From contig OZ037769.1 in NCBI GenBank assembly GCA_964035545.1, positions 17,055,633 to 17,119,632 on the forward strand: a stretch of 64,000 bases of DNA, read 5' to 3'. Both the position numbers and the translations under genes were made by a program. Positions 1,886 through 52,100 of the stretch are shown here, piece by piece; the stretch's first letter is position 1, and each line of letters begins with the position of its first letter. Below the pieces are notes generated by a model that saw only the letters and a program-made list of their open reading frames with translations, made no database searches and was not told the origin of the DNA. This DNA comes from Bugula neritina (lineage: Eukaryota > Bryozoa > Gymnolaemata > Cheilostomatida > Bugulidae).

Positions 1886-4800
1886 ATGGCCATGGCTGAG
1901 CCGATGGCGCAGGTTAACTTGTCTCGAACTCTCAGACTCCGAGGTGGCTGCCGGTGGGCTGTTCAGCATGCCTGCTTGCTGCCTACAGTAGAAGGTGAGC
2001 TATTCATGTTTAGACCTTCAGAGAGATTGTATAGGAGTTGTTTTATGAGAGCCAAATCTATTTACAGGTTGCATGTCTTATTCATCACGTATTGCTGAAT
2101 GATAAGTTCCATAAAAAAGCATGAAGATTAAAACATTACATTGTGTGGCCTAAGTTTTAGCCTTTTCTAGAAAATACCAGAGCTGTGTTTGTGTTAAAGG
2201 CCTGGCAGTGTTGGAGTTGTCACTTTCTAAGCGTAAGAATGCCCAAGTGGAAGTAACTCTCTCTTCAATGGATTCGTACACACAGCCTGTAGAGTGTAAA
2301 GATATTGATGCTATTCAGCTTGTGAGGCAGTTAGATGGCAAGCCACACGCAGTGAGTGGATCAACGAGCTCTACTTTAAACTGTTTTAATCTTAGATATA
2401 CTAAATGCTACTTTCACAGCCCGACTTATTGACCTGATTAAGACTTTGAGAGAAAAACCTGAATGTTATGTTGGAGTTTATTCACCAACATGTTCTTACA
2501 AGGAAATTTGCTTTTTTTCGTAGGGTTTGATTTCTGTGATTTATAGATCAGTTGATGAGTTTTGTTTATAAGTTGCCATGGTAACAGTTCTGTGTTGTTT
2601 GACTTTAGATACAGAGACTGAAGTTAGACAGAGTTGTCTGCCCCTTGATAAAGTCTATGGGAGACCACCTAGCTGTGCGACAGGTAAACACTGTAGTTAC
2701 TAACTAGCGATACAAGTAGTGTTTGTGTAGAGCTCCGTGCTGGATATTTCTAGTTCAAGATTCAGTCGTTGAGAAACTAATCTATTTTTGATGACAAAAT
2801 ATACATATTCCTAAGTCTTATCAGGTTTGCTCGTTAAGGAGTTGTCTGCTTTTTTCTCCAGTGTTGCTGGGAGCCGGGGGGCGGCCGGCCCCAACCCAAA
2901 GTAGCCGTGTTAGCCCAGGAACTGTTGCTCTACAAGTACACCAACCATAACTGGAGGGAGTGCGCCAACCTCTCCCAAGCTCTCTCGGACCACCTGGGGC
3001 AGCACCCGCTGCCGAACAACTCGGATGACGTGACGGAGGTGTTCAAGGCTCACAGTCGGTACATCAGAGTCATGCACTGGGCTGTCGCCGGTATCTTCGT
3101 AGCCAACAGTTACAGCCGCTTGTTTGTCATGAGATTCTCGGCTGAGGGCTGGAAGGTGTTGGGACTAGACTTGGGGTCTGTGAGTGTGGGGGGTGTGTGT
3201 AGCCTCTCGTCTCTTCACTCTGGTAGTGGTGCAGGAACTCTGGTTGTTGGAAGACTTGATGGGACGTGTACTCTCGTGACCTTGAATTCAGCCTTCAAGG
3301 TCACGTCTTCTCGTACTCTCAGTCTGGAACCTGACTATCGGCCAATAGAATGTCTTCACACCATATCGGTAGTTATCTTCTCTTCTCAGTGTATTCTCAG
3401 GAGTTATGCTCTCTGTAATGTTGACTTGCAGTTTATTCTTTCGCAACTCTAGTTATGTTAAGTTGACTGTATATTTACTGTGTATAGATATATTGTATAT
3501 TTACTTTATAGAGATATATTGTAGGGTAGATATGGCTATAACTGTATGCTTGTAGAATAAAGAAATAGTATTCGTCAAACACACAGACATATTCATATAC
3601 AGTTACGGACAGGAAGTACTCAAAACCTACACAGTATATGAAACTAAGTACAGCGTTGTCCAAGCTACTGCTGACTCCGCCCATTTATATATCGCTACTA
3701 ATGAGTCAGGTGTATTCGTAAAGGTAATACCTGTAATAACTGCAGGTATTATTTCCGGATAGCCAGTGTTGCAGCTGTGAAATTCATTTTTGTTGAACCT
3801 TCAAGATGTACAAAATTCTAAACTCTAATATAATTTACTATAAGCAGCAGTTTCTCCATGAAATGTAAAGAGCAGGTGCTAGCAAGTTGTTTCTATGATT
3901 CAGAGCAGAGCAAGTGGTGACACTGTGCGACACCTGCCCAACCTGCCAAACTACTCTTGCTACGGGTTGACACTCAGTCCTAGTGCCACATTCCTTCTGA
4001 CAGTAGCTCAGCCTGTCTCTGTTGACATGTACATACACAACAAACCACTTTCGGTACGTGTCATTTGTTAATATCAGTTTCAGTAGTGTTACTCAAACTC
4101 AAACCAAATAATTTTCTTCATCATATTATGTCATCTTCATTATATTGAACATTGATAGGTAGTTTTCTTAATTTACTGCATAACTGTGTGTCATGTGTCA
4201 GCTATTGATTATACCCTGTAAGCCTTACAATGATGTTATATTCTCTTCTCTCTAGGTGCAAGTCTTCAGTCTGAAATCTTTAGAAAAATATTTAGAATCT
4301 CTTTGGAATTCTTCGACTACATCCGACATCTCCTTTGAAACCTTCATTATGATTGGTTAGTTGAAATTCTTACCGTAACACACTTGTAATAGAAAATTGT
4401 CTCAATGTTAAGCTGTTGCTAGGTAACTGCTTACTCGTTGTTAGGTAATTGTTTACTCGTTGTTAAGTAACTGCTTACTCGTTGCTAGGTAATGGTTGCA
4501 TGAATCTACCGGATTGGCTGATCAGGGAAATAGACAGAGATTTGCTAACGGCCAACTTCACACACATGCAACTCAGAATTCTCTACATTGTGTGTTTCGT
4601 GACACAGAAGAGCTCCAATCTTGAGCCAGGTGTTGCTGATAGGTATGTGTTGCTGTAAACTCTGAGCCAGATGTAGCTGATAGGTATGTGTTGCTGTAAA
4701 CTCTGAACCAGGTGTTGCTGATAGGTATGTGTTGCTGTAAACTCTGAGCCAGGTGTAGCTGATAGGTATGTGTTGCTGTAAACTCTGAACCAGGTGTTGC

Positions 4801-5351
4801 TGATAGGTATGTGTTGCTGTAAACTCTGAGCCAGGTGTAGCTGATAGGTATGTGTTGCTGTAATTTTCGAGAAGCATGGAAAGTAAATTATCTGTAGTTG
4901 TACTTGTTGTGGGCATAGTTTTACCCTCATGTTGATTTTAGGAACAAAATTGTGTTTCAGGTTGAAGAAGTTGTCTTCCCTGAAACTGCGTCTCACTTTA
5001 CAACACATGAAGAGCAGAGAGACGGTCAGCTCTTCACACATTAACCTCATTGAACAATTGTGCACAACACAGCCTACCTCTTGGGACGTGTCTCGTCTCC
5101 CCGGCACCAAGTGTGTGATATGTGGAAAGAATCTCAGTCTAGCACCAGAGCTATTGTATTGTTGTGAAGATGGGCACGGTTTCCCTGCATGCTCCAACAC
5201 AATGCTACCCATTGTGAGTGCCAGCCCTGACAGGTGCTCTCTGTGCTCTGCATACATTATAGACTTGAGTGACACGACGCGTGACATGGAGTCGCTTATT
5301 GCTGACACTTGTGCTTACTGTGGAGGTGTCAAACAGGTCTCCGACACTTAG
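1886..5351 (+). CDS. GTF3C4: TFIIIC 90 kDa-like subunit (general transcription factor 3C polypeptide 4-like)
   Basis: Coding exons by splice sites and frame: 1886-1994, 2200-2351, 2609-2683, 2862-3368, 3556-3723, 3904-4053, 4256-4355, 4489-4629, 4942-5351, giving 603 aa. The N-terminal half is beta-propeller-like (GTLVVGRLDGTCTLVTL, YGLTLSPSATFLLTVA), and LAVLEL resembles the start of the human TFIIIC90 propeller. The C-terminus has a Cys/His zinc finger: CVICGK, then CCEDGHGF, CSLC and CAYC. This is the layout of the TFIIIC90 C-terminal zinc-binding domain. The family helps TFIIIC bind and open RNA polymerase III promoters in the nucleus. The protein is shorter than the human one (about 820 aa), mainly in the propeller loops and the acidic middle. 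An acceptor-like AG just before 1884 suggests an upstream 5'UTR exon. AATAAA at 5503 may end the transcript. Intron-rich and convergent with COASY. Family call is moderate; existence of the gene is strong. Confidence 0.75.
4415..4489 (+). repeat. 22-bp minisatellite carrying a splice acceptor
   Basis: Three tandem 22-bp units precede exon 8 of the GTF3C4-like gene. Each contains the acceptor phrase GTTGCTAG or GTTGTTAG/GTTGTTAAG followed by GTAA or TAA, which copies the authentic junction TTGCTAG|GTAATGG at 4488/4489. Confidence 0.75.
4621..4862 (+). repeat. 41-bp minisatellite carrying a splice donor
   Basis: About six tandem units of 41 bp start at the 3' end of exon 8. The real junction is GAGCCAG|GTGTTGCTG at 4629/4630, and the later units repeat GAGCCAG or GAACCAG followed by GTGTTGCTG, GTGTAGCTG or ATGTAGCTG. 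The exon edge and the donor are therefore both copied. Confidence 0.8.
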
Positions 5352-5502
5352 CCACACATGATAATTACATGGAGAGAAGTTGGGCAGGTGCTCTCAGTAC
5401 TCTACACACAGCTCAGCGACACATGACATCAAGTGCTCTTTTACTGTGACTTGTTTAGGCTGTAGAAGGCTCAAAGTGGTCAGGTTAACAATATTCGTTG
5501 GA

Positions 5503-5508
5503 ATAAAT
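5503..5508 (+). terminator. Candidate polyadenylation signal AATAAA
   Basis: Canonical hexamer about 150 bp after the stop codon of the GTF3C4-like gene, in the convergent gap before COASY. Confidence 0.45.
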
Positions 5509-5897
5509 TTGTTCATAATATAGGAACCTTCACATGTTAGCACTAGTTTTGGAAGTAATCAGCTTAACAGTTATTATGCAGATTTACTGTTAAATATTTG
5601 AGATATGTATTTAAGAGAAGATAACTCTGTAGGAAAGAATACAGCCATGTTAGAGAAATGGTACGTGAAAAACTTTACTTGTTGGGATGCTTTTGTAAAA
5701 CTAGAAAATTTAAATTGTTTTTGAATCTTTTTTATTGTTATTAAATGATTTTATTAAATATAAATTACATTAAAAAAGACATAGACACTGCAGTTAAAAC
5801 TCTCTTATTTAGAAGGAACGTTTTCACCATATAGCTATCCAATTGTGTTTTCCCGCAGTATTAATAGAAATAAATAGATTCTCATAATATATTAAGT

Positions 5898-8800: not shown

Positions 8801-9083
8801 TAACGTTAAACGGTTAATACAAAAATAAATGTTGTAAAATAAAATGAAACTTCAACACTTGTCAAGCTTCAGATGATTAATGCAAAGTTATTTTACCTGT
8901 GGTTGTAGAACTAGAAGTTGAACTTGATGTACTTGTACTTGTAGGAGTGGCAGAATACATGTGAACAAATACTTGTTTCTCAACGTTTTTATACGTGCTG
9001 ACATTCTTCAATGCACTTAATACATTCGCAGAAAATCTAGCAGTTGAGACATCTAGACACATCAAAACTGATTTAGAAGACAT
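5898..9083 (-). CDS. COASY: Bifunctional coenzyme A synthase (phosphopantetheine adenylyltransferase / dephospho-CoA kinase)
   Basis: Minus-strand coding exons: 9083-8897, 8597-8353, 8183-7976, 7811-7606, 7398-7267, 7030-6904, 6785-6655, 6496-6412, 6199-5898, giving 540 aa (human about 564). The adenylyltransferase domain shows ALGGTFDSIHNGHKVLLGAA with the HxGH-type catalytic motif (HNGH), and VVSEET further on. The kinase domain shows the P-loop GGIASGKSSVGKR, followed by GKEVCFIEAALLLEANW and the C-terminal LWDYQVTQQQVETAW. It catalyses the last two steps of CoA synthesis from 4'-phosphopantetheine. The fused enzyme is the animal arrangement and is often mitochondria-associated. The N-terminal ~60 residues are Ser/Thr-rich and poorly conserved. 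The 7606 donor (gttggt) is non-consensus; the stronger gtaaag four bases on would break the frame. Confidence 0.96.
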
Positions 9084-11120: not shown

Positions 11121-14100
11121 ATGACTCTCCTCCAGATTCAGAATGAGGTGAGTAGAGTATTCAGAATGAGGTGAGTAGAGTATTCAGAATGAGGTGAGTA
11201 GAGTATTCAGAATGAGGTGAGTAGAGTATTCAGAATGAGGTGAGTAGAGTATTCAGAATGAGGTGAGTAGAGTATTCAGAATGAGTTGAGTAGAGTATTC
11301 AGAATGAGGTGAGTAGTGTATTCAGAATGAGGTGAGTTGAGTATTCAGAATGAGGTGAGTAGAGTATTCAGAATGAGGTGAGTAGAGTATTCAGAATGAG
11401 GTGAGTCTAGTTGTTACGTTGTGTCTCACTTTTTTAGCCGGAACTGATTCAAGCTTGTTTCCATGGCTACGCAGACGAAGTCAGAGCTATCATTTACAAC
11501 AAGTCGGAGGAAATAAACTATCAGGTGAATGTGCGGTCACAACGCTATGCCTACCTGGGTACTCGAGACCATGTCGATGCATTGAGTGGAGTTGTAACTA
11601 GGCTGTGCATTGTTTCTTATTATGTTAATGTTAATAAGAGAGCATGATATAAGTTTTTAAGCAAATCTAGGCCCTTTAATCTATGAGAAATATTTTTGTA
11701 CAGATCTATGATTTAGATTGTGCTAACTCGGTTGTGAGAGATCAGATTGTGTTTGTAGGACCGAGAGAAGAGGACAGCACTTCACGCTGCCGCGTATTGC
11801 GGAGAACCCGACATCATTGACCTTCTCATACTCAGCGGAGCTCCGCCCAACCACAAGGACAGCAAGTGGAGGACTCCGCTACACAGAGCTTGCTGTAGTA
11901 GGAGTGCTGTGAGTCACCGCTTGTCTACCAGTTACTAGTTACAATACTGAGTTACTATTGAGAGTACTGAGTTACCATTAGTTGGAGTACTATAACTTAC
12001 AGTACTACTAGTTAAGGTGATGGAATAGTTGGAGTACTGAGTTATTCCTACTACTACTTCTAGTATTAGTAGGAATTCATGTAATTAATTGTGAAGGTAG
12101 ATTACTAGTATGATACTAGTATGATGTTATCAACTTACAGGAAGTGATGTCATGATTTGTATTGTAATCTGCAGATCTATTCGGCTCATTAGCTGAGAGT
12201 ATGTTAGTATGTCCATATGATATTATATACTATACTGTATGTTATATAACTCATCATATGATATTGTACACTATACTGTATATTATATAACTCATCATAT
12301 GATATTATATACTACACTGTATATTATATATCTCATCATATGATATTATATACTTTACTGTATATTATATATCTCATCATATGATATTATATACTATACT
12401 GTATGTTATATAACTCATCATATGATATTATATACTATACTGTATATTATATATCTCATCATATGATATTATATACTACACTGTATATTATATAACTCAT
12501 CATATGATATTATATACTTTACTGTATATTATATATCTCATCATATGATATTATATACTATACTGTATATTATATATCTCATCATATGATATTATATACT
12601 ACACTGTATATTATATAACTCATCATATGATATTATATACTTTACTGTATATTATATATCTCATCATATGATATTATATACTATACTGTATGTTATATAA
12701 CTCATCATATGATATTATATACTATACTGTATATTATATAACTCATCATATGATATTATATACTATACTGTATGTTATATAACTCATCATATGATATTAT
12801 ATACTATACTGTATATTATATATCTCATCATATTCCAGGCTAGTGTTGAGGTGCTGCTGAAACACAGTGCTGACGTGAATGCCAGAGACAAACAGTGGCA
12901 GACACCGCTACACGTTGCTGCCAGTAATAATGCTGTCGGGTAAGTCTCTACACATACACAGATTTGTCACTCAACTATGTCTGAGACCATCTATAAGCCT
13001 GCCCTCGTACTGCTCATACTGCACCACTCTATAAAAGTTATCTCCCTCTGTCATATTTTACATTCTTGAAATAATATCTGGTATTTTCCAGGTGCGCTAA
13101 GATGTTGCTCCCCCTGGTGACCAAACTAGACATGACGGATCGCACCGGACGCTCTGCTCTGCACCACGCCGCCTTCAACGGGCACACAGCGGTATGTTGT
13201 ATATACAGTCTTGTAGTTGTGGGATTTATGCTCTCTTATCTGGTGTAGCCTGTGATCTGAAACTTGGTGTTTCTGCAGATGGTGAGCTTGCTGTTGGAAA
13301 ATAGGGCTAAGATAAATGCTCTAGACAAGAAGGAACGTCAGGCTATGCACTGGGCGTGTTTTATGGGTCACATCGACGTGGTGATGGAGCTGGCGCAGCA
13401 CGGGGCTGATCTGGCTTGTCCGGATAAGCAGGTGCGAATATCATAAATATAATCCACTATCATCTCTGTGAGTATACAGTATGGAATACATGACCACCGC
13501 TGCCCTGTATGTCATCGCTGCCTCTCTTCTCTTCAGATGTTTACCCCGCTGCACGCCGCTGCCGCTGGAGGTCAGACCACCGTCGCTAAGTTCCTCCTGG
13601 AGATGAACGTAGACGTCAATGCTGTCAACTGTAACGGCAACACGCCTCTTCACATAGCCTGTCTCAACGGCATGGACATCATTGTCACTGATCTCTTGGC
13701 TTATGGAGCTTCCATTCTTGTGACTAACACTAAGGGACAGGTAGATATCAGTGATATTGACTAGACTGGTTATTCTGTGACGTATGCGCCCTGTGTTTAT
13801 AGTTAGTGTTCACATCTAGCAGCCAATAGTGTGCCTTGTACCTTGCAAAGTGTATATTTCATGGACAAGCCTTGCTAACAGATCAAATCTTCTGATTTAT
13901 CTCCACTTGTTCTCCACTCTGTGTGTTTTCTGATCTCCCTGCACTTTCCATTATAATATCAACTATCACGTTGTCGTAGACCCCGTTACACTACGCCGCC
14001 GGGGCCTCGTATAGTGACACCATACTAGCAGTGTTGGCCAATGAGAAGGCAGATGTGAATGCCAAGTGTCAGGAGGGGAGAACTCCTCTACACATAGCAG

Positions 14101-17100
14101 CTGTTCATGGGAGATGCAGCAGAGCGCGTGTCTTACTCAATCACGGTGCCATGGTGGATGAGGTGGATATATACGGTAACACGGCTCTGCATATAGCGGC
14201 TCAGCACGGACACGATGCCTTCATAAATACTCTCCTTCTACACAAGGTACGTACTCTACTACACAAGGTACGTATTCTCTCAACTTCCTGTATAGTATAT
14301 GTGTGATTAAACTTTTCCCGTGTTGTGCAGGCACAGGTAGACAAACCAGGAAGTGGCGGGTTACTTCCTGTGCATGTGGCGGCCCTCAATGGGAGACTGG
14401 ATTGCTGCAAGAAGCTGATATCCGCAATGCCTCAGTTCGACATCAACTGTTCTGATAACAGCAGCCGTACCCTCCTCCACGCAGCTGCGTGCAGCAAGTG
14501 AGCTTAGTCTATGTGTTATGTAATATCCTGTGTGTTATATAATATCCTGTGTATTATATAATATACTGTGTGTTATATAATATACTGTGTGTTATATAAT
14601 ATACTGTGTGTTATGTAATATACTGTGTGTTATGTGCTGCCAGTAACCTGGAATGCCTCCTCTACATAATCAACATGGACTGTGATACTAACCTGAGAGA
14701 CTCCATTGGAAGAACTCCTCTACACTACGCTGCTGCCAACAGCTCTCTCTCTTTCGTCAGCAAGTTGGTTGACTCTGATGCTGACGTCAGTATAGCCGAC
14801 ATCAGGGGCTGCACCCCTCTTCACTTTGCGGCAGCATTTGACACTGAAGGGAGGTGAGTTACTATCACGCTGCTGTGTGAACTGTTACTGTTGGTTACTG
14901 TTGCTAAGGAGACTGTTGCTATGGGGACTGTTGCTATGGCTACTGTTGCTAAGGAAACTGTTGATATGGTTACTGTTGCTATGCAGACTGTTGCTATGTG
15001 GACTGTTGCTATGGCTACTGTGTTGTAGTATGATCCATTTCCTCCTACAAGCCGGAGCTAATCCACGAGCCACCGACTCTCAGGGTCACTCGGCTCTCCA
15101 CTACGCTGCTTTGAAGGGGAGTTCGGCAGCACTTGACATTGTAAGTGTAGAGTAAGTAAAGAGTAAGTGAGCTGGTATTGTAAGTACAGAGTAAGTGAGC
15201 TGGTATTGTAAGTACAGAGTAAGTGAGCTGGTATTGTAACTACAGAGTAAGTGAGCTGGTATTGTAAGTACAGAGTAAGTGAGCTGGTATTGTAAGTACA
15301 GAGTAAGTGAGCTGGTATTGTAAGTACAGAGTATGTAGACTAGTAGTCCAGATATTCATTTATCTCTACACTTTCTTCTAGTTGATAAAGAGGTCAGAGC
15401 ACGACCTGTTCAGTCTCAATGTTAATGTGCCAAACGTTACGCCACTGCACTACGCCGCATTCCATGGACATGACGAGGCCATCTCTTTGCTCATGAACAC
15501 AGTCATAGACGTAGACTTGAGAGATGACAAGGGTGAGTCAGACTGAGCGAGTAGTGAGTGAGTAGAGAGTAGAGAGTGACGCTGAGTGAGACTGAGTGAA
15601 TAGTGAGTAGAGAGTGACGCTGAGTGAGACTGAGTGAGTAGAGAATGAAAGTGAATGAGTAGTGAGATTGAATGAGTAGTGAGATTGAATGAGTAGTGAG
15701 TGATGAGTGAGTAGTGAGACTTACTTAGAACAGGCAGTTATCTGTCTGCTATTTTCTTGTCACATATTCTCACCCCCTATTTGTGATCTAGGGAGAACTC
15801 CACTAGACTTGGCAGCATTCCAGGGACATGATGACGTGGTGACATCACTAGTGAACGCTGGAGCCAACATATGGGTGAATGATTTGTTTAGCGGGCGAAC
15901 TCCGATCCACGCGGCAGCATACAACGGACATGAAGGGTGTCTGCGTGTCCTCCTAGACAACAGCGATGACGAGAATATTGTCAACGCGATAGACAACTCC
16001 GATAGGTTAGCTCATGTTGCTCACTCTTTTCTGTGTATATAGATAGACATACAGACAGACATATAGACAGACAGACAGACAGACACACAGATAGACAGAT
16101 AGATAGATTTTACAGCTAGCTATGTTATTGCTGCAGGACGCCTCTCATGTGGTGTGTACTGAATGGTCACGCTGACACGGCCGGACTGCTGCTACAACGT
16201 AGCGCATTACCCAACGCCGTGGACAAGGCGAGAAGGTCAGCATTGCACAGGGGTGCTGCCCTCGGCCGGGAGGAGTGTGTGGACATCCTGTTCCAGTACC
16301 AGGTGGATGTGTGTCAGCGGGACGTCAGGGGGCGCTCGGCTCTTCACCTGGCGGCGGCAGCAGGGTATTCTGGGATGCTCGTAGCTCTGGACAAGGTCTG
16401 TCGTAGCGTATATATTACAGTAGACTGCTTCGTATTACTCACTGTGTTATATTACTATATCAAAGTTATATAATATATTACAGTACGCCACACAGTACGC
16501 TAAAGATCCCTCTCTGTTGATGCAAGTTGATAGAAGAGGCTTCACTCCTCTACACTGGGCATGTTACTACGGTACGTGTGACTATAACTCTGTACTAGGT
16601 ACTACTCACTATGTACTATATACTGTGTACTATATACTATATACTATGTACTATATACTGTATACTATATACTGTGTACTATATACTGTGTACTATATAC
16701 TGTATACTATATACTGTATACTATATACTGTGTACTACTCACTGTGTACTATATACTGTGTACTACTCACTATGTACTATCACTGTGTACTATATACTGT
16801 ATACTATATACTGTGTACTATCTAGGTCACTGTAAATACATTCCATTGTACACTGTTTTATTTCTAGGTCACGACAACTGTGTTGATAGTATCTTAGATT
16901 CTGATACATACACAGAGTTCGCTGGCAGCTCTTATTCTCCTCTTCATTGTGCAGCGTAAGTTTCTCAGACTATACTCTGTATATATTCTCAGACTATACT
17001 CTCTGTATATATTCTCAGACTATACTCTCTGTATATATTCTCAGACTATACTCTCTGTATATATTCTCAGACTATACTCTCTGTATATATTCTCAGACTA

Positions 17101-20100
17101 TACTCTCTATACTATACAGATCTCAGGGAAATGATACCTGCACTCAGCTGTTGTTAGAGCTTCACGGCTCTACTATCTCCAACCTCAGAGACTCGTGTGG
17201 ACGGTGAGTTGTCTTCCCTCTACATACTAGTTTATATTTCTACAGATCCCCTCTACATACTAGTTTATATTTCTACAGATCCCCTCTACATACTAGTTTA
17301 TATTTCTACAGATCTCCTCTACATACTAGTTTATATTTCTACAGATCCCCTCTACATACTAGTTTATATTTCTACAGATCTCCTCTACATACTAGTTTAT
17401 ATTTCTGTAGATCTCCTCTACATACTAGTTTATATTTCTACAGATCTCCTCTACATACTAGTTTATATTTCTACAGATCTCCTCTACATACTAGTTTATA
17501 TTTCTGTAGATCTCCTCTACATACTAGTTTATATTTCTACAGATCTCCTCTACATACTAGTTTATATTTCTACAGATCTCCTCTGCATCTGGCCGCTGCA
17601 GGTGACCACTGTGAGAGCATACAGCAGCTGATAGCTGTAAAAGCTGATGTGGACGCTAGAGATAACAACAACCAGTCTGTCATCATGAACGCTGCCGCTA
17701 AGGGCAAGGGTGCTGCCATAGGTGAGTATAATATACGACTCAGCTCACCCACCTGTTGTGTGATCACTTGTTATGAACTGCTTCAACGATATTGTGTAAA
17801 CAAACAGACAGACAGACTACTTTTCCTTTTCAACTCTGAAGTTACTTTTCAGTCAATAGTTTCTTCATCAGTCGAGACTCACTTAGAGCTAACAAAATGC
17901 TAGTTTACAAGATCTCTACTCTCTTGTTTTGTTCTTAGAATTACTTCTGGAGAACAACGTAGACCTCAGTGTGGCTGATAAAGACGGTAATACGGTCCTT
18001 CACCTAGTATGTCACAGTGTAAGTATGTCACAGTGTAAGTACATCACAGTGTAGGTATGTCACAGTGTAAGTATGTCACAGTGTAAGTATGTCACAGTGT
18101 AAGTATGTCACAGTGTAAGTATGTCATAGTGTAAGTATGTCACAGTGTAAGTATGTCACAGTGTAAGTATGTCACAGTGTAAGTATGTCACAGTGTAAGT
18201 ACGTCACAGTGTAGGTATGTCACAGTGTAAGTATGTCACAGTGTAAGTATGTCACAGTGTAAGTATGTCACAGTGTAAGTATGTCATAGTGAAGTATGTC
18301 ACAGTGTAAGTATGTCACAGTGTAAGTATGTCACAGTGTAAGTATGTCACAGTGTAAGTACGTCACAGTGTAGGTATGTCACAGTGTAAGTATGTCACAG
18401 TGTAAGTACGTCACAGTGTAGGTATGTCACAGTGTAAGTATGTCACAGTGTAAGTATGTCACAGTGTAAGTATGTCATAGTGTAAGTATGTCACAGTGTA
18501 AGTATGTCACAGTGTAAGTATGTCACAGTGTAAGTATGTCACAGTGTAAGTATGTCACAGTGTAAGTATGTCACAGTGTAAGTATGTCACAGTGTAAGTA
18601 TGTCACAGTGTCAGTGTGTTTAGACTGAGTTCCTGTATCAGTGTGTTGTATTTCAGGGTGTCGAGAATGCAGTCCTACTTGTGCTGGATAAAATAGAAGA
18701 CCAGGCTATTGTAACTAAGGCTAACCTGAATGGTGAAACGTAAGTTTCCTGTTTATTTAGCCAATCATTGTCCTGCAATAAACCAACCCTCTGATACACC
18801 CTAATACTATGTTATACAGGACTGGTAACAGTCTAATACTATGTTATACAGGACTGGTAACAGTCTATTACTATGTTATACAGGACTGGTAACAGTCTAT
18901 TACTATGCTATACAGGACTGGTAACAGTCTATTACTTCCTGTTTTCAGAGCTCTCCATCTGGCAGCAAGAGATGGAATGCTGCCAGTGACGGAGATTCTG
19001 CTGTCTAAAGGAGCGAGCGTCTTCGCTGTCGACAGCAGAGGCAGGTACCCAGCTCTCGCCTGCGCTCAGTCCGACCGAGTGGCCGACTGCTTGGAACTCA
19101 TCATCGCTCAGATGATGCAGGTCGGGGGTGGTACGCCCCGCCCTTCCACCAGTGGCAGAGGCAGCTTAAATTCTCTGGCTAACACCACCATTGGTATGTC
19201 AATTATTATACTTATTCTTTTCTATTTATTGTGTCGAAAATTCTTTCTATTTTTTCTCTAACTGTTCTACTTTTTTCTCGAGAAAATATTTAGCTATGAA
19301 CACAACTTGAGTTTAGACCGTGACTCGAGCTACCTTGTATCCAGGTATTTTCTCGCGTCTCAAAACCAGTTCCCCTTTCACTTGTATTGTGCTTGTGAAC
19401 AACTAGCTCGTTGTACGACCTCTACAGTAATCTACAGCAGCACACTGACCTCTATAGCTACTGTGTGTACATCTCATTGTTACTGAGCTGTGTATGTCAT
19501 TACCAGATGTAGAGCTCTGTGTGAGACTGGACGATCTATTGTCTGGTACTGACTAGTTGGTATTAGAGTATAGTCTGTGGTAAGCAGTGCATGTGGTGTG
19601 ACGACATTAATACCTCTCTCCTTCCGCTCTCCTCCCTCTCTCTCTCTCCCTCCTCTACTGTCTTTATAGTCAGTAGCAGTAGTACTACTAGTAGTATTAG
19701 AAGTAGTAGTAATAGTGATAGAGTATATATCCATGCCAACTTACCATCAGTAGTACTAGAGTTACTATCAGTAGTACTAAAGTTACTGTCAGTAGTACTA
19801 GAGTTACTATGAGTAGTACTAAAGTTACTGTCAGTAGTACTAGAGTTACTGTCAGTAGTACTAGAGTTACTGTCAGTAGTACTAGAGTTATGAAGCAGAT
19901 CTGGCATGCTAAAAGATTTCCTCTCTGCAGAAACGGTTTGACCACGGCGTGCATCTTTATTGTTGGGTTAAGCAATGCGGAGTGCTTCACACCCTCCCTT
20001 CTATCTCTGCGTACATTCCAACTCCTGCGCTATGCTCTCTCGATTGAGTCTTTTCTGCATAATATTCTGATATCATTCTCGTTATGCCTGGTTTCTGTGC

Positions 20101-21357: not shown

Positions 21358-33021
<11,664 letters not shown>

Positions 33022-37787: not shown

Positions 37788-40744
37788 ATGAGCTCCCCCA
37801 AACGATTAGCAAATCGCCATGGGAAAGGGAAACCGTGAGTTACTTTATTCCGTCAGTATGTACTCTTCCTTGTGCACTAGTCTGTGTGTATTGCATCCCT
37901 GCCCCTATAATAATTGTACAGCCAATTTATTAAAATGAAGGTTTGATTTAAGTTTGAAAGGTTTTTAATTGCTCTAGACACATAATTTTGGACACAGCAA
38001 CTCTTGTTAGTTTTCATGTAAGCAATTGCATATTATATTTCACCTCGCATGTCGGTATACTTTATAGGAACATATGGATTGAGTTTTCAACATTAGCAAA
38101 AGAGTTTGCTAAAGTTGACTTCGGTCAGGGACAACCGAGCTACGCCCCGCAGAGTTACATAGCTGAAACACTGTCTCAGGTAGCGCTTGAGGGTAATGAC
38201 TTTCTTCAATATACAAGAGAAGTAGGTCATCCAAGGTAGGTCAATGTGCGCTCTTATTGGTCGATGTTATAGCATATATAAACTGTCTTTTTAGTGGTCA
38301 GAAAAAGTTTGATCAACTCCCCATCTCTCAAATGACTGAATCAATACGACTAACAGTGAAACTAATCACTCATGGTGCTGAGTAGATAGAAGAGAATTTA
38401 GTTTGAAATGAAACATAATGTTTGATCTTGTTTCTAACTTTCAATAATCTATAGAAGTCTCGTTCAGTGTTGAATAATTTTCAGTTTTGACTATCAGGAG
38501 TTGTCTGCTTTCTTTCACATTGTTTCGATGTTAGGAGTTATCTACTCTATTTTCAAATACAATGTAGTTATAATTATTAGTATTATACTACGTAAATTAT
38601 GCATGATGCTCTATTTATGTTATATACGTATATGGGTGTATCATGTTATATATAATTTGGTAATGTTATATACTAATATAATATAGTAACATTATTATAT
38701 ATATTGGTATATAATATAATATATAGTAATATACTGTAATATATAATATAGTAATATATGCCAGAGTAATATCTAATATATAATATAATATAGTAATATA
38801 TGCCAGAGTAATATCTAATATATAATATAATATAGTAATATATAACAGAATAAAACTTGCTGTAGATTAGTGAAGGCTGTAGCAGACTTACACGGACCTC
38901 TTCTTGGTAGAGCCATAAATCCTACAACAGAAGTTCTTATAACCCACGGGGCGTATGAGAGCCTCTTCTGTTCTTGTCTTGGCCTGGTATGTGGTACTCC
39001 ACTACGTAATACAGAGGGTACAGCTCTTAGTTTAGTATATGCTATCTTATTTGTTATATGCTGTTTATATATGCTTTGTATTATTTATATTTTATAATAT
39101 TAGTTTATCAGCCAATCACACGTGATATACTAATATATCAACCAATCACAGGATATATACTAATATATCAGCCAATCACAGGATATATACTAGTGTCATC
39201 AATGTGACCTGTGCTCTGATTGGTTGAAGGTGAACCCCGGAGATGAGGTCATACTGATAGAGCCGTTCTTTGACTGCTATGAGCCGATGGTTAGAATGAG
39301 TGAAGGGAGAGCAGTGTTTGTTCCGTTACGCCCCTCTGTCACTCCGCCCACCAGAAGTGAGCACTGGAAACTGGACCCCGTGGAGCTGGAAGGGAAGTTC
39401 AGTGATAAGACTAAGCTCATCATCTTGAACACCCCCCACAACCCAACTGGCAAGGTGGGATCCCATTCTACAGCCGATAGTCAAAGTTTCTCGTACAACT
39501 TCTGTCTTCCAAACTAGCGTTTCCTATAATTTATTTTTGAAGTTCGCTTCATTCTTTTCTCCATGCTATTAAGTTCTGGTACAGTAAAAGCCATGTTTCT
39601 TGCATACTTTGTGAAAATGTTTGGTACGTAGTGCTCACCACCCGATACTAATTTATAGGTTTACAGCCGAGAGGAGATGGAGATGATAGCTGCTCTCTGC
39701 ATAAAGTACGACGTCATTTGTGTGTGCGACGAGGTGTATGAATGGGTGGTGTATCCAGGGGCCCGCCACCTGAGAATGGCTACTTTACCAGGTACTCAGT
39801 CTATATAATGTTCTAAGTGCTCAGTCTGTGCTGTGTATATACTATGTGTATGTATTACATAATAAAGGTATATATTACATAATGCAGGTATATATTACAT
39901 AATGCAGGTATATATTACGTAACACAGGTATATATTACATAATGCAGGTATATATTACATAATGCAGGTATATATTACATAACACAGTATATATTACATA
40001 ACACAGGTATATATTACATAATGCAGGTATATATTACATAACACAGGTATATATTACATAATGCAGGTATATATTACATAATGCAGGTATATATTACATA
40101 ATGCAGGTATATATTACATAACACAGGTATATATTACATAACACAAGTATATATTACATAATGCAGGTATGTGGGAGAGAACCATCACCATCTCATCTGG
40201 AAGCAAGTCTTTCGGTGTGACTGGGTGGAGAGTCGGCTGGTCTGTCGGGCCAGAAGATCTCATTAGTTGTCTCCTCGTGGTCCATCAGTCGGCAGATGGC
40301 GTCTGCGCCACGCCCACACAGGAAGCTGTCGCCAGATGCATTGAGAAAGAGATCGCGACTCTTAATCAGCCCGAGTCTCACTTCTGCACTCAGAGAGAGA
40401 ACTTACTGGAGAAACGAGACGTCTGCGTGCAGCTGCTGAGAGAGGCCGGTTTTGTGCCATGTGTTCCCGACGCCGGCTTCTTCGTAATGGCCGACTGGTC
40501 CAGCGTGGCTACGGAAGAGATGGTGCGCGACGGCTCCGTTTCTTCCCCAGACTTCCTCTTCGTCAAGTGGTTTCTCAAGAACTTCGGTATCTTGACAATC
40601 CCGCCGTCTGCTTTCTACGGGGAAGAAAATAACAAACACATCTGCAGCAGATATATTAGATTCTGTTTTTGTAAAACTGACGATAACTTTGACAAGGCAA
40701 GACAAATCTTGAAAGATATTCCCAAGTTGAAACGTATCCAATAA
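37788..40744 (+). CDS. Kynurenine/cysteine-S-conjugate aminotransferase (KYAT1/KYAT3 family)
   Basis: Coding exons: 37788-37834, 38068-38235, 38866-38986, 39230-39454, 39659-39791, 40167-40744, totalling 423 aa (human KYAT1 is 422). It is a fold-type I PLP transaminase. VDFGQGQP is at the N-terminus. The substrate/cofactor part shows [13 protein letters not shown] and [11 protein letters not shown], then [23 protein letters not shown]. The PLP lysine is in [20 protein letters not shown], and the C-terminal substrate arginine lies in [10 protein letters not shown]. It converts kynurenine and 2-oxoacids to kynurenic acid and also acts on glutamine and cysteine conjugates. No organelle-targeting peptide is evident. 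The fifth intron (39792-40166) is almost pure minisatellite carrying the acceptor. Closest human relative (1 or 3) not resolved. Confidence 0.95.
38640..38855. repeat. AT-rich repeat (TAATATATAATATAG type)
   Basis: Degenerate AT-rich units, including two copies of ATATGCCAGAGTAATATC, in KYAT intron 2 just before the exon at 38866. Confidence 0.6.
39105..39200. repeat. ~30-bp repeat (CCAATCACAGGATATATAC)
   Basis: Three copies of a ~30-bp unit in KYAT intron 3. They contain CCAAT motifs by chance of the repeat and carry no copied splice site. Confidence 0.65.
39845..40170 (+). repeat. 20-bp minisatellite copying a splice acceptor and making up most of an intron
   Basis: About 16 copies of GTATATATTACATAATGCAG (variants end AACACAG). 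Each unit starts with GT and ends with AG. The authentic junction is TAATGCAG|GTATGTGGG at 40166/40167, so the acceptor and the first four exon bases are repeated. Confidence 0.85.
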
Positions 40745-42535: not shown

Positions 42536-42836
42536 CCCCCTATTCACACTTACCGTATCATACGCCGTAACAGCAAATATCAGCCATTTTTACAGATGTC
42601 TGAGCTTCCTGTACGGCGTTGCGGTACGATAGGATCAAACACTGCTTGATTCAAATAAGTTACGCCAGACTCCTATTGGACAGAAAAACTTTTGTGTTAA
42701 CTCATTGGATATAATTGTCCAATGAAGTGTCATAGATCGTACCTAAGAGCGAACTTTGAAAACTTCAACCCGGACACATTAAATATGGCTGATATTTTAC
42801 GTTACCACGTACGTTACGGTTAGTGTGAATGAGGGG
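42536..42836. mobile_element. MITE with ~36-bp terminal inverted repeats
   Basis: The left end CCCCCTATTCACACTTACCG and the inverse of the right end CCCCTCATTCACACTAACCG match over about 36 bp with a few mismatches. The element is about 301 bp with no coding capacity. A clear target-site duplication was not found. It would lie in the 5' intron of the first four-TM gene. Confidence 0.7.
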
Positions 42837-43384
42837 TTAGTCGTAAATTAGTTTTGTAAATGAAATTTCATAATAATTCTATCAAATATGTAATAGATCA
42901 GCATGGTGGTATATATATAATTTATTGGAATGTTTTGCAATGGAACTATGACCTCATTTGATAGACAGAGTGGGATTGACTACCAGCTGCAGTGTTTTAG
43001 GTTTTGCATACTTATTATGAATATATTATATATAGCAATAGATTACACTACAAAAGTACGAAGCAGAACGTAAATAACAACAGAGTAGATGTATACCTAC
43101 TACAGTTTACTCTAATATGTTAATCTCTGTGTCAGTCAATGTAAATGAATCAACTTTTGCTATAGAAACAGAGTATATTTGTTATGGAAACATAGGATAT
43201 TTACTATAGAAACAGAGTATATTTGTATATAGAAACAGAGTATATTTGCTATAGAAACAGAGTGTGTTTGCTACTTGTAGATGTATATCTACTGCAGTTT
43301 AGACTAATATGCTAATATATAATTTGCTAAAGCATTCAACATGAAATTAATTAAATTTTAGACCAAGTCTTGCATCTGGACTCC

Positions 43385-46300
43385 ATGGAGAAAAAACGAA
43401 CAGATCAGACAAATGAAGTTATGTCTGCATCCCTTCTATATGTAAACGTGTAAGTATATATCAGTAGATAGTGTACTCACTATATTAGTGTAAGTATATA
43501 TCAGTAGATAGTGTACTTACTATACTAGTGTAAGTATATATCAGTAGATAGTGTACTTACTATACTATAGTGTAAGTATATATCAGTAGATAGTGTACTT
43601 ACTATACTAGTGTAAGTATATATCAGTATAGATAGTGTACTTACTATATTAGTGTAAGTATATATCAGTAGATAGTGTACTTACTATACTAGTGTAAGTG
43701 TATATCAGTAGATAGTGTACTTACTATACTTATAGTGTAAGTGTATATCAGTAGATAGTGTACATACTATACTAGTGTAAGTGTATATCAACCCCTTTTG
43801 ATGAGGTTTCCTTGTAGTGGCTATAACCTTGTCTAGCATGAAGAGTATTTATTACCAGATGCAGTAAAAGATATATTGCCCTTTAACTGTTATATGGTGT
43901 TGATGAAATATTATGGCTATATCAACATTTCGTGAATTTTAATGGTTTGAAAAGTTGAAGCGCGTGGCCCCACTCCATTAATACACTATGAGCTATGAGT
44001 TAATATACACTACGAACTGTAGTAGTAGTTAGTAATCAGTATACTATGTACTAGTAGTAGTTTGTAAACTGTGTAGCTACTAGTAGTAGTCAATACATAG
44101 TATATACTAGTAGTAATTAGTACATGAGGTTCCTAGTATTTGTTGCAAAAGCAATAAAACACTTGACGCTCAATTACTGTGTGGAAAGTGAGGTGATGCA
44201 CACGTGTGGTTGTTTTACTGCTCCATGCTGTTCCTTTACTCTAAAGACTACCACCATAATTATGCAGTCACTGCATCCTTTGAAGGCCAGCTGTTAGTGA
44301 ATGTGTTTGCTTTTTACTTTGCAAATAACCATAACTTTTTGATGAGGGTAGACATTTATTCTTTATTAACTAATCTTAAACCAACTGAAGTTCATGTAAT
44401 ATAATATAGTAATAGTATATATTATAGTATAGTAATATGTAATTATAATGTACCAAATGGTTCATAAATATTATGTAGTACTATTACATATTATAATAGT
44501 AATATGTAATAGTGTATTAGAGAGTTCATATATAATATAATAATATATATAATAGTAGTAATATGTTAGTATGCACTAAATAGTTAATATATAGTATAGT
44601 AACAACATTATACCAATTCTGGCCTATTATGAACAGTTGAGGGTAGATGAAAGCTATAGTAACCATAGTAACGGTAGTAGCACTGGTAACCGTAGCAACA
44701 ATTAGTATCACCATATAGTATTTCTCCCATATATTGAGCTGAATTTACTCTCTAAATATAATAAACTATTAACAGCAATTCAGTCATAATTCATTGGAAT
44801 ATTGATTTACTGATTGATTGATTGATTTACTGATTGATTGATTTATTTATTTATCGATTACATATCACAGGCATGAAAACACGTGAAATTCAGAGTAAAT
44901 ACTGGCTATAATAAGTAGGCAAGAAAAAAATTGGAAAATAAGTCAAAACTCTGTTGGATGATTTAAAATAAAATCTCATTTGAATTTTGAAGTATTTAAA
45001 GCTATCCCTGCCCTACATGCTCCTCTCTATTGGGAATTATCTTCTTGTCTATATCGTATTCCCACTAGCAGCTGGAAAACTTTCTAGTTTCTGTAGGAAA
45101 TCTTGAATGGTGTATTATTTCTGCAGCTTTTGCCCACTTTTAGATTTTTTAGTTACTTATGCATCAATATATAGTGATAATAATGGTATTATCATCAACA
45201 TCAGGGTATACCATTATAATATGATTACTATTAGTGTTAGCAATACGCTATGCAGTTTTTTTATAAATCAGAACAATAAGTGAATTCTAGATGTTTCTAT
45301 AGCTTTTAGGAGATAGTTGTGGAGGGGGGGGTGGTGGTGGCTCTTTCAGTATAACAGATATCTGTCACATACCATCAATGCTAATAGTTCACATCAATTT
45401 GATTTGACCATTTAACCATTTATATGAATATTATTTGAATGATTTTTAGAGTGTGTCTGACACAACTAACCCTCGGTTTGTTCACTTTATTCCAAGGACT
45501 CACTTCATCATTGTGGGACAACTCCCAATACGACGTAAATGACTCATCAGTAGACACCCTCTGGACTGGACTAGGAGTGAGTACTCTCTCTGTCTGCTGA
45601 TAACACACTATTTGAGAGAATAGCTAATGTTAATTAGTTCTTAGATATTCAGGTGTATTTACTTTCTTCCATCTATCACATTTATATTGACTGATGTACC
45701 AGCTTTTCATATTTATAGAGTAAGTTAGTTATTGATGAAATACATGATGATGCTTATACCAATTCGTTGTGCATAATTAGTATATACAAGATAAACCATG
45801 TAGCAGTGCTGTCTTTTAATATTCTGATTAAATATATGTCATAATCTATGTCAAAATATGTCAGCATGTGTCGGTATGTGTCATAACATGTGTCATAATG
45901 TGTCATAATATATGTCATAATGTGTCATAATGTGTCATAATATATGTCATAACGTGTCAGTATGTGTGTCAGGATATGTCAGTGTATTTGTCAGAATGTG
46001 TCATAATATATGTCAGAATATGTGTCACAATATGTGTCAGTATGTGTGTCAGAATATGTGTCAGTTATATGTGTCAGTAAATGTGTCAGAATGTGTCAGT
46101 AATCAGTATATGTGTCAGTATATGTGTCAGAACGTGTCAGTTATACCACTGTAATACTCAGTCTCTCTCCAATCAACAAGGTGACTCCTTTGTTTCAGCT
46201 CATCTTAGCTGGAGGACTGGGGTTGGGGTTGACTACATTCAGTGAGAAGATATGGGTATGTAGTAGAGCTGAGCTGGTACCAGCCTTAACTTAGTGTCAG

Positions 46301-47474: not shown

Positions 47475-47599
47475 ATTGATCATTTGTTATTATGTGTTGT
47501 AAATTGTGTATTTATTAATAATGTATATGGATCAGATACTGGTTTGTGAGGTTGGGAATATATATCAAATATACAGTATTTATAATATTATATTCATAC

Positions 47600-47842
<243 letters not shown>

Positions 47843-48129
47843 TGAGTATATTACATCATACAGTTTACCATCAGTACACATTATAACATGAATACGTGAC
47901 ATTTAACTCCAGTTTATCCTTATACTAGAAGGTAAATAACATGGAGTCACATGATCTAAGTAGGCTACAATCAATACTATCAGTATTATATTACAGTAGG
48001 TAATGTATTGTGTTATATTATATTAGGTAGAGTGTTGTAATGTCTCCTAGCAATCATCAAAACAATGAGTTGAATAGCTATTGAGATCTATTGAGCGTTG
48101 TATTGAGGTCTATTGAGCTGTGTATTACA

Positions 48130-48192
48130 CACATTAGCTGATGAAAGGAAAGTAAACACCGCCATTACACAACTACCTGGCTAAGCTGACTG
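48130..48192 (+). other. Possible 5'UTR exon of the second four-TM gene
   Basis: The segment ends CTGACTGGG|GTAAGTAA, a strong donor. The next gene's first coding exon is preceded by an acceptor (TTTCTTACAG at about 49137). The exon's 5' limit is not visible. Confidence 0.35.
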
Positions 48193-49147
48193 GGGTAAGT
48201 AATGTACATACCAACGTTCTACAAGGTTCTACAAGGAACTGTAAGTTACTTCATGAGAGTCTTATGCTGCCTTTATACCTTATAGTTGTCGGCGCACTAT
48301 TACTAGTTAGTAGTAATTACTTACTAGTTATTGCTAGCCTTAGATAGTTGTAGAATACCTTATTATGCTATTTGTGTGTTTTTGCTTGGAGCACATTCTA
48401 GACTATGGCAAATATTCACGCATATAGTTTATTAGACTCTATAGCTTGTTGGAATTTTGCATTTCTTGGACCACAATGCATTGCAAATTATATTTTCAAT
48501 GCGTTCCGCAAATTGTAAGCAAGCTGCACATTTCAGTTTAACTTTCGACATGCTGTGACAATTGAAGGTGTCACCGAGGCAGCGCCGCACATATCTTTTA
48601 TTATTTCAGAGAGTGAGAGCTCTAAAATCGGCAGCAAGTATTCTAAATAAGTGCTGCCCCAGCATTGGGAATGTTGAAGTAACTAAAATTATTTAACTGT
48701 TGTATTTTTCATATTTTGACACTATTTATATTTTTGTGTTCTCTGTATATTCTCTATAGTACGCTGTATTGTTGATCTAACACGTTCACTATACATTCGG
48801 CCTCTCAAATCTCTCCAGGATACACCAAAATACCAGTTAAATAAAGTTCAGCCCTGAATCATAGTTTAACTTTATTCTTGATAATGAACAATACGCTATG
48901 GAATAGATATAATGATGCATTCAATGAACTATTATATACGCCATCTACAAAATATTATGTGCAACATGCTTGCGGATTGACTGCCATGAGTAGTTAATAG
49001 TACTACTTAGTTGTGAGTAGAGAAAGATGGGTAACTGTGTAAAACATTTCCAAACTTACAGTGAAACATTCTATTGATCTCACTTGTAAGGATAGTACAC
49101 GCGAGACAAGTTAATGTTGGAGTTATCTTTCTTACAGAAACAAGAAA

Positions 49148-52100
49148 ATGCATTCTACCCAGCAAGTACACGTGCAGCAGCATCCCATGCAGCCGGTTAC
49201 TATAGTAACCCAGCCTGCTCCGCAAAATGACCCGGAAGATAAATTTCAGCCTTCTGCCCTTTCGCAGATGAAAGTGTGAGTGAAAGTTTTGATCAGTAAA
49301 TTCAAAATGATCAGATTTCAATTCGATCAGCGAGATTGGCTAGTTGTTACATAAGCATATAGTATTCTAATGTAACTAACCAAGATAACCACTTTCAGGC
49401 TCAGCATAATACAGATAGTTATGGGGGTTCTTTGCATCATATTTGGCATCACTCTGGCAGCATTGGACTATACCTCGTATCTATCCAGCACCAGTGAGAT
49501 TGGAGTTATTGGATATGGTATATGGATTGGATTATACGTAAGCTCTTTGATTTTATACTATACTGCGTATACATGAGTTGGATTTAACTTTTATAAAATA
49601 TACAGATTGTATAAGTGAGCAATTCATTTTGATACTTTTATTTTTAACATTATTATATTTATACATTTTTGTCTCCACTAAAAGCAAAATAATGTTGAAA
49701 AATTGTAAAGTTATGTTATTATTTTATCATAATTGGTAGTACCTTTTACTAGTATTACTTATTTTACTACCTCATCATTTTAGTTCATACTTGTTGGAGG
49801 TATTGGGATGGGAGCTGTTAGCCAAAACTCTAATGGATGGGTTAGTTTAACAACTTTAATTTTTCTTTGTATCAGCCTCTACTATTTATTTGGATATTTT
49901 TTATTGATTACCATTTTTTATACTATATCAGTGATTCCATTTCAAACTATCAAAATAATACTCTGTTTTAGATTATCAAAACGATTATGTTTTAGATTAT
50001 CAGTACGACTCTGTTTTAGATTATCAGTACAATGGTGTTGAACATACTCTGCTCTGCGGTCTGGTGTTGGATGTTGCTCAGCTTCTCCACAGCTGGTCTC
50101 GTCAGCATGCGTGTGAATGAGTGCTATTGGTTCATCTGCTCGTCTAACCATGTACGCTTCAGTTTCTCCACACAATATAAGACTTGCTAATGTTTTGCTA
50201 TAGTTATTCAATGTGCTATTTCAACAGTATCTGGCATTGGTTTTATTTATTTTCTGAATTGAGTATTGAATTTACTTGGAGTTGGTTGCCCCTGTTGATT
50301 TTATCAACCCAGAGTTTATGTTGAACTTGCATTTTATAACTCAGTTATGTAGAGTTGTAATTTTCAAATTTTTTATCCTAAATTGTTTTTGGTTCGAAGC
50401 ACATCAACAATAAGGTCTATTCTGTAATAACACTGAATTCATGCAACTTGGTTTATTAACACCCCTGTGTATTACTTGAGGAGTTGTCTTTCTTATTTGG
50501 GGCCTTTTCTATATAATAGAGTACTTACATGGTTGTCATATTATGAAAAGTTCTAATATATTATAGATTGCTGATGTTTTCTATGCCATGGATGGGATGA
50601 TGTTGATTATGAGTATCATCCAGTTTGTCATAACTATCTGGTGTGCTGCCTTGTGCTGTGGTGCCGTCTGCAGATGCTGTAAACACACGGCTACTTCAAC
50701 ACACATGGTGAGTTCTATGAGCGGCCATCTTGGTTAGTTGATATCCTAACCGTAGCTGATTTTTAGCTAACCTCTGTTAGAGTTACAAAGAAACATTTAG
50801 TATTCTAGCTAAATCCAATTCATTGTCTTACAAGTGAGTAAGTACATACAGGTCAAAGTTCAAACCCCACTCCCTCTTTGCTAATATATTCAGGAGTTGT
50901 TTTCTCTTGTTAGAATATTGTTTATGAAGTGAATATAATTCTGGCAAAAATCCAAAACTCAAAGTCATTCTAGCAATAAATTTCTATTTAGAATAACAGC
51001 TTACAATACAAATTCTGAACAGGTTTTATACTAATGAATTGTTGATAATTTAGCTGAAACTTAACTTTACAAGAGCAATGAGAAATGTTGTAGAAATGTA
51101 TATTTATTAGGAGTTACATATTATATAAGTGAGGGCATTACATTACGTCAAAATGTATATTTATTAAGAATGAAACTTTTCTACTCTGTTGATACATAGT
51201 AATATAGGTATCAAACTAACAGAATAAATTTAAAAATGTAGTATGCTCATTTTCACTAATGGAAATTTGAACATAGACTCTCTTACGTCACGTTACATGG
51301 CGTTACATTACTTTATATGACATTACGCCACTTTACATGACGTTACACTACTATGTATATAATATATGCTGTAATACTAGGGCATTGCTTTATTTCTCTT
51401 ACTGAATTTATGGGTCTTGATGTAAAATATTATGAAATATGAGTTGGTTTTGAAGGCCATGTAACTAAGTGGTCATTACTGAATGACCAAATCTCCACAT
51501 GCCAATTCATTTAGGAGCAGTGGTGAAGAAATTGAGACAGCCTAAGTGTTTTTAAATTTCTTTATAAATTTTAGAAATAGATTTTCACGAGAATATAACT
51601 TCCTTTGCTACATTTCTAATCTAGAACACAGGCTTTTCTCAATTTCTCCATTACCTTTGCCAATATCTGTTCTGTGTGCCAGTTTCAGAAGTTTAAAGCA
51701 AGACTTCATGTAAAGTAAACATAAGATGTAGGTGGTGTGATAGTGTGGGTGATTTCTGCTGTAGATACATTACAACAATGGAATGAACACCCAAGTGATG
51801 TACCCCAGTGTGCCCATGTACTCCACAGGATACCACACAGGGATGAACCAGGCTTGTGAGTGTTGAATATTCTAGCTACTAGTTGTGTTTATGTCTAACA
51901 TGCAGGGTAGTACTCTGTAACTCTGATAGATAGCTGAGATGTTACTACTCCTAGACTAGTGTAGGGAAAGTTGGCTTAGAAGTTGATATTTGCTTCGGTT
52001 CAGCTGACTAACTCATGGACTATTTTATTCAAAATCTTTTGCCGATAACCAAATGCAAAATTCAATATGGTCATGGAAGTTTGAAGGTTTAAAAAGATAA

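Follow-up and report, generated by a model that had tools for sequence, protein, structure and literature searches.

Introns in a 64,000-nucleotide stretch of the genome of the bryozoan Bugula neritina (the window; C5:17055633-17119632, on contig OZ037769.1 of assembly GCA_964035545.1) often contain minisatellites, and a number of these run across a splice junction, repeating the splice site and a few bases of the adjacent exon along with intron sequence. Using Tandem Repeats Finder (TRF), we found 32 arrays in 29 of 59 curated window introns, with periods of 12-46 bases. Their units lie head to tail and, in the TRF calls, within the minisatellite range of about 9-100 bases. Ten of these arrays include a junction together with at least four exon bases, five at donors and five at acceptors.

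We think that these arrays probably reflect short tandem duplications that expand in introns, are tolerated where they extend across a junction, and are spliced at their outermost copy. Short segments in and around introns would duplicate in tandem and then expand. Because the introns are short (median 162 bases in those free of arrays), such a segment would often straddle a splice junction, and its copy would include not only the splice site but also as many as about 15 exon bases. The mature mRNA would be unaffected while the outermost copy, i.e., the first donor or the last acceptor, is spliced. Selection would treat the array as intron, leaving its period free of any multiple-of-three demand and allowing the extra splice-site copies to drift. 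This account is supported by crossing counts near those expected from random seeding, by the involvement of both splice sides, and by the recurrence of crossing arrays at three loci elsewhere in the assembly (L044, L048 and L054).

Junction-crossing arrays in the window

All counts use arrays with a TRF score of at least 50 and a period of at least 9. Junctions come from a self-written spliced protein-to-DNA aligner and a self-written exon-chaining gene finder, and the models were edited by hand. The aligner queries were the ankyrin homologues P0001, P0003 and P0007, PDB chains of KYAT3 and KDM2A, and coenzyme A (CoA)-synthesis chains. The gene finder was trained on the aligner-derived exons of the same window and then used for the remaining junctions. 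The 59 curated introns belong to five genes, and 32 of them are labelled homology-fixed; this label includes 20 ankyrin-gene introns, of which the first donor and the introns at about 11909-13278 are partly based on the gene finder. The five genes are as follows.

GTF3C4-like gene, + strand: zf-TFIIIC (PF12660, E 2e-7)
CoASY gene, - strand: PPAT and DPCK parts
PPP6-regulatory ankyrin gene (ANKRD28-like), + strand: homologue alignment
KDM2 gene, - strand: JmjC (KDM2A homology), F-box and LRR
KYAT gene, + strand: KYAT3 homology

Arrays that cross or touch a junction, or were candidates for doing so, are listed below with the basis of the junction where there is one, together with one array inside a coding exon as a control.

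4415..4492, + strand: 22-base array; acceptor of GTF3C4-like exon 4489-4642, 4 exon bases; gene finder
4622..4863, + strand: 41-base array; donor of GTF3C4-like exon 4489-4642, 21 exon bases; gene finder
11136..11406, + strand: 23-base array; first donor of the ANKRD28-like gene, 12 exon bases and 11 decoy donors; homology-supported (P0003)
14238..14278, + strand: 21-base duplication; donor of exon 13980-14246, 9 exon bases; three homologues
15141..15333, + strand: array at a donor, 0 exon bases; alignment-based junction
17217..17588, + strand: 33-base array; acceptor of exon 17576-17721, 13 exon bases (ankyrin SPLH codons); three homologues
18006..18619, + strand: 16-base array, 38 copies; donor of exon 17939-18018, 13 exon bases (VCHS codons); three homologues
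22106..22143, - strand: irregular 13-base repeat of about three copies; KDM2-locus donor; score 46, sub-threshold
23010..23219, - strand: 22-base array; acceptor of KDM2 F-box exon 23015-22833, 6 exon bases (Ala-Trp); KDM2A homology
25278..25426, - strand: 21-base array inside a KDM2 coding exon (control); period a multiple of three
26784..26925, - strand: 46-base array; donor of KDM2-locus exon 27080-26915, 11 exon bases; gene finder
27546..27791, - strand: 22-base array beginning at a donor of the KDM2 locus, 1 exon base; gene finder
29364..29515, - strand: 31-base array; acceptor of KDM2 exon 29376-29212, 13 exon bases; gene finder
30305..30631, - strand: 28-base array equal to the whole KDM2 intron 30630-30305 (326 bases), 0-1 exon bases; KDM2A homology
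39848..40170, + strand: 20-base array; acceptor of KYAT exon 40167, 4 exon bases; KYAT3 homology
43448..43790, + strand: 40-base array, every unit with GTAAGT; without a supported exon
49960..50030, + strand: 24-base array; acceptor of CD20-like four-transmembrane exon 50020-50151, 11 exon bases; gene finder

In regions aligned to homologues, the exon part of the units is coding sequence: LLHK codons at 14238, SPLH at 17217, VCHS at 18006 and the F-box Ala-Trp at 23010. Given that coding bases recur in the units, it is likely that a segment straddling the junction was the one copied, and that the arrays arose by its tandem duplication.

An initial annotation of the window had counted at least 14 junction-bearing arrays, naming 16, and had put their exon part at 4-13 bases. 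We can confirm 11 with 4-21 exon bases, namely the ten curated arrays and that at 49960. The latter lies outside the curated set, and the CD20 match of its gene (E 3e-4) is below the Pfam cut-off. Three others, named there as 15135, 27545 and 30303, only touch a junction (0-1 exon bases), and the full range becomes 0-21. At the first of these, a weak 11-base repeat (score 46) begins at the first intron base (15141), and the 28-base array begins 11 bases into the intron, at 15152. The repeat named as 22104 falls below the score threshold; the gene-finder model there would give eight exon bases covered. For the array named as 43446, the exon-chaining finder gives no exon, and an exon at 43362-43449 was predicted only by a first gene finder that we discarded for over-prediction in favor of the exon-chaining one. 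The annotation was right that the 30303 array carries both a donor and an acceptor, as it makes up the whole intron; the two sites occupy different positions of the unit.

The editing of the models was as follows. Window exons omitted by eye were 211-222, 4423-4444 (within the 4415 array), 23064-23081, 23152-23169, 26748-26818 and 21358-21496, along with CoASY exons above 8183 or below 5970 and ankyrin and KDM2 exons predicted past the listed ends. The region 24242-26314 was merged, and the exon ends 14246, 16496 and 19192 were set to homology positions. In the half of the window that is poor in genes, the exon-chaining finder still over-predicts, and its noncoding training took in L039 and L042, both of which were found to contain genes.

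Separately from the arrays listed above, an intron of the ankyrin gene contains a 41-base array of 15 copies (12214-12833) that fills two thirds of its 930 bases and ends five bases before the acceptor.

Arrays elsewhere in the assembly

The assembly comprises 215.8 Mb in 295 contigs, of which C1, C2 and C3 have 35.6, 33.6 and 32.4 Mb. Outside the window, six large contigs were sampled at round coordinates with 15 stretches of 10 kb (L039-L053), to which we added L054, which is one flank of the window, and L004, which was brought in by a tandem-donor pattern and so was not freely chosen. Nine of these 17 loci were usable (L039, L043, L044, L046, L048, L049, L052, L004 and L054), giving 56 introns and 13 arrays, and all of their junctions are gene-finder predictions. 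Among the ten genes used, seven have clear Pfam matches, two (in L048 and L049) have weak matches, and one, the membrane gene in L054, has none. L042 and L047 (despite Pfam matches), L040 and L045 were left unused, and single weak exons were removed in L039, L044 and L052. Arrays beside dropped or unfinished introns were not counted (L039 308-364; L046 3528-3764, which is six bases inside an intron whose far end is unmodelled). Three arrays cross a junction:

L044 5508: 5 exon bases; MFS transporter gene (PF07690)
L048 3971: 15 exon bases; VASP-like gene (whole prediction unmatched, a piece matching at E 7e-5, below the cut-off)
L054 8013: 13 exon bases; gene-finder model only

The density of intronic arrays per kb of intron is 2.27 in the window genes, 0.41 in the genes of other loci (before L054 was added) and 0.42 in mixed non-curated stretches. 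Given that the window is denser in intronic arrays than the other stretches, the genome rate should not be read from it.

An array offers many potential splice sites, and the annotator or the gene finder might simply have picked junctions inside arrays. Gene-finder junctions indeed underlie the crossings at 4415, 4622, 26784, 29364 and 49960 and all three elsewhere, and the gene finder put spurious small exons inside two arrays, one in that at 4415 and two in that at 23010, all of which we dropped. However, six window crossings are in homology-fixed introns, five of them with a junction that comes from a spliced alignment to a homologue (ankyrin, KDM2 or KYAT), and the recurrence of coding bases within the units does not fit such an artefact, which we therefore regard as very unlikely.

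A search with a tandem-donor pattern gave 43 matches, versus 4 in a reversed control. This search was dropped, as the motif marked no predicted sense-strand junction in the five loci examined (L001 and L003-L006). At L004 and L006 the predicted genes are on the opposite strand and the other three loci have no convincing gene, an outcome in keeping with an artefact.

Reading frame and copied splice sites

The period is a multiple of three in 4 of the 14 crossing arrays (the 11 in the window and three elsewhere) and in 8 of the 32 window intronic arrays, which is no commoner than chance among periods. Both wholly exonic arrays have such periods: that in KDM2 (25278-25426, period 21) and one at L054 8442-8502 (period 18), in an exon that was predicted by the gene finder and has no Pfam match. 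Use of an inner copy would shift the reading frame in 10 of the 14 crossing arrays and would preserve it at 14238, 17217, 49960 and L048; by frame, inner-copy splicing may thus occur in these four. The initial annotation had proposed that duplications at junctions are tolerated because any copy can splice. The duplication itself is borne out by the homologue-aligned coding bases in the units, but splicing at any copy is unlikely for the ten arrays that would shift frame. We infer that splicing instead uses the outermost copy.

If the copied sites drift as intron sequence does, their GT or AG dinucleotides should be no better preserved than the rest of the unit. In ten of 12 arrays, decoy GT/AG columns have 2 mismatches in 96 cells, versus 34 in 1258 for other columns, a comparison of low power given the 96 cells. 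The arrays at 18006 and 39848 were left out because indels break their ungapped register; with them included, the counts are 49 of 200 and 368 of 2055. Taken together, periods that ignore frame and decoy columns that vary like the others suggest that selection treats the arrays as intron.

Alternatively, the copied sites could be selected as functional decoys or enhancers that regulate splicing. Up to 37 decoy donors at 18006 retain an intact GT, and predicted accessibility is higher at the authentic site than at the decoys in 10 of 14 arrays (P 0.049). In C. elegans, moreover, minisatellites are reported near regions of alternative splicing (PMC4039745). However, the dinucleotides vary like other columns, in-frame periods are not favored, and the predicted difference in accessibility may be a mere edge effect. 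RNA folding is no better than that of shuffled sequences in 9 of 14 arrays (z above -1.5), although two fold far better (z about -11). A functional role for the copies is very improbable in our view. Masking of the decoys by RNA structure was also tested, and the evidence was weak.

Frequency of crossing and gathering at intron ends

In our null, a unit of each array's own period is seeded anywhere over the introns of its stratum or across their edges, and crossing means at least four exon bases. For the window, the 10 crossings among 32 arrays compare with 8.0 expected when arrays are collapsed to one unit (P 0.26), 7.4 with the lengths of array-free introns (P 0.18) and 5.4 with present intron lengths (P 0.03). 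A null conditioned on each intron gives 12.1 (P 0.86) and probably overstates the expectation, since collapsed introns may have lost sequence. In homology-fixed introns only, 6 of 20 arrays cross, versus 5.5, 4.8 or 3.3 under the first three nulls (P 0.49, 0.34 and 0.09). Outside the window, 3 of 13 cross against 1.0 expected. The stratified total is 13 of 45, eight at donors and five at acceptors, versus 9.0 with collapsed arrays (P 0.09). Unstratified pooling (12 vs 5.5, P 0.005, before L054 was added) was not used, as the window has shorter introns and more arrays.

Array edges in the window run continuously across the junction, with no stop at the boundary: 1 lies at exon bases 16-30, 11 at exon bases 1-15, 12 at intron bases 0-14, and 7, 11 and 6 at intron bases 15-29, 30-44 and 45-59. 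In 13 of the 14 crossing arrays (the 13 counted above and that at 49960), no more than 15 exon bases are included, whereas 8.9 such arrays would be expected if the exon part were uniform over the unit (P 0.011). Long exon parts might be lost because their decoys become too competitive or too costly.

Several results weigh against the account of tolerated duplications with outermost splicing. With present intron lengths, the 13 crossings compare with only 6.4 expected (P 0.007), and the choice between this null and the collapsed one depends on the ancestral intron length. Arrays also pile up near junctions: 26 of 45 lie across or within 15 bases of one, versus 16.3 expected with collapsed arrays (P 0.0016) or 11.9 with present lengths (P <0.0001), and the excess is found both in the window (P 0.032) and elsewhere (P 0.008). 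This pile-up, to which we give full weight, speaks against pure random seeding, and there is some gathering at intron ends on both sides. In addition, the junctions of 4 of the 10 window crossings, and of all three elsewhere, come from the self-written, window-trained and hand-edited gene finder. Inner copies were chosen at 14238 by the gene finder alone (the second copy, 14267) and at 11136 by the aligner, which took a later copy for a tiny exon; the first copy at 11136 fits the start codon and the N-terminal length of P0003. Identical competing donors often favor the site nearer the acceptor. The low power of the decoy comparison belongs here as well.

The same counts bear on two statements of the initial annotation, which regarded junction-anchored arrays as a distinct class and would have expected more overlap with junctions than in a random background. 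In the sampled loci, 13 crossings compare with 6.4-9.0 expected (P 0.007-0.09), and the continuous edges do not set the crossing arrays apart as a class. Given the pile-up near intron ends, arrays may prefer these ends.

The pile-up could mean that exon-intron boundaries are duplication hotspots owing to a process tied to the boundary, such as breaks coupled to transcription or splicing, the step in G+C content, or slippage on the splice consensus. This is a possibility that we entertain tentatively. Besides the overall excess near junctions, window arrays with at least three copies show it on their own (17 of 24 near a junction vs 10.5, P 0.0067). There is also a G+C step, with exons at 50% and introns at 33%, and arrays near a junction have a somewhat higher purity than those in the intron interior (median 95% vs 90% matches, P 0.054). 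However, crossing itself is not in clear excess over the collapsed null, and the near-junction arrays comprise 14 at donors, eight at acceptors and four at both, so that no single motif accounts for them. Sense-strand G+C skew is positive in 24 and negative in 14 of the 45 arrays (P 0.15), and an R-loop-like skew is thus not significant. Array-bearing introns may also have lost other sequence, which would shrink the denominator of the null. We are similarly hesitant about the combined idea that boundaries are true birthplaces of minisatellites and that the spliceosome dependably selects the outermost among as many as 38 near-identical sites, with junctions copied without cost; it might be correct, but we would not expect it to be.

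Origin of introns and dispersed elements

The initial annotation had also suggested that introns grow by tandem duplication of AGGT-containing segments. In this model, introns are gained or enlarged when AGGT exon segments duplicate in tandem (Rogers 1989; Hellsten 2011), and the arrays would be young introns. One KDM2 intron is wholly array (30305-30630), and array-bearing introns are longer than others (median 264 vs 162 bases). However, none of the 45 arrays has exon bases at both junctions, which contradicts the model as a general account, and the length of the sole whole-intron array is no multiple of its unit (326 mod 28 = 18). Where the intron part of the unit was compared with the next exon, in four of the eight crossing donor arrays, it agrees at 9 of 20, 2 of 11, 3 of 12 and 1 of 3 positions. 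Moreover, array introns keep a median of 87 bases after collapse of the array. We therefore consider this origin hardly likely. Human introns derived from tandem arrays are reportedly the subject of work by Zhuo from 2007, which by its title connects tandem arrays with splice sites and concerns intron origin.

A dispersed or introner-like element was considered as well and rejected, as no common unit was found among 42 window units. Of their 861 pairs, 19 share at least 10 bases (5.8 when shuffled) and 5 share at least 12 (0.8 when shuffled); the longest shared words in the window are between AT-rich units.

Comparison with known repeats

Variable internal tandem repeats at exon-intron boundaries have been described in paralogues from human segmental duplications (De Grassi and Ciccarelli 2009, PMC2812944). 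The likeness is close in that both are TRF-detected minisatellites over such boundaries. The human repeats differ among recent paralogues and may form new introns; where they do, most are also retained in an alternative transcript. By contrast, the Bugula arrays lie in mostly conserved genes unrelated to one another, and in 10 of 14 the reading frame would be lost by splicing at an inner copy.

Intron gain by AGGT tandem duplication, described together with a multi-copy case in fission yeast (PMC4974935), resembles our arrays in that a segment near or in an exon is duplicated in tandem, and some of the arrays have an AG|GT junction. Unlike in that process, the array here sits at one intron end and the other splice site is kept. 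The C. elegans minisatellite CeRep25B, found near regions of alternative splicing, is likewise an intronic minisatellite tied to splicing regions (PMC4039745), but it is one repeat family, whereas the units here differ between arrays.

These loci amount to a natural experiment on splice-site choice, with 2 to 38 near-identical donors or acceptors in a row and, in the ten frame-shifting cases, a coding frame that tells which copy is required. If RNA shows that the outermost copy is the one used, many genes together could serve to test models of how equal splice sites compete. The arrays also suggest that splice junctions are perhaps no barrier to tandem duplication, and that introns can grow from their edges.

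Additional observations

Within the KDM2 locus, a 710-residue open frame on the - strand (24198-26330) has two zf-CXXC stretches, and a further CXXC-like cysteine motif was spotted by eye near 28370-28770. An open frame of 470 residues on the + strand (56617-58029) has CCHC knuckles and an aspartic-protease-like motif, and is presumably part of a retroelement.

Small G000 contigs (e.g., L009-L015 and L017-L038) have protein kinase matches with many in-frame TAA/TAG codons, and are probably from ciliate contaminants or companions. Long satellites with 20-base units occur at L041 1-7867 (C1, about 400 copies, 74% matches) and L051 6-10000 (C4, about 500 copies, 72% matches). Finally, the window contains an unbroken AC dinucleotide repeat at 54113-54444, with 166 copies and 100% matches.

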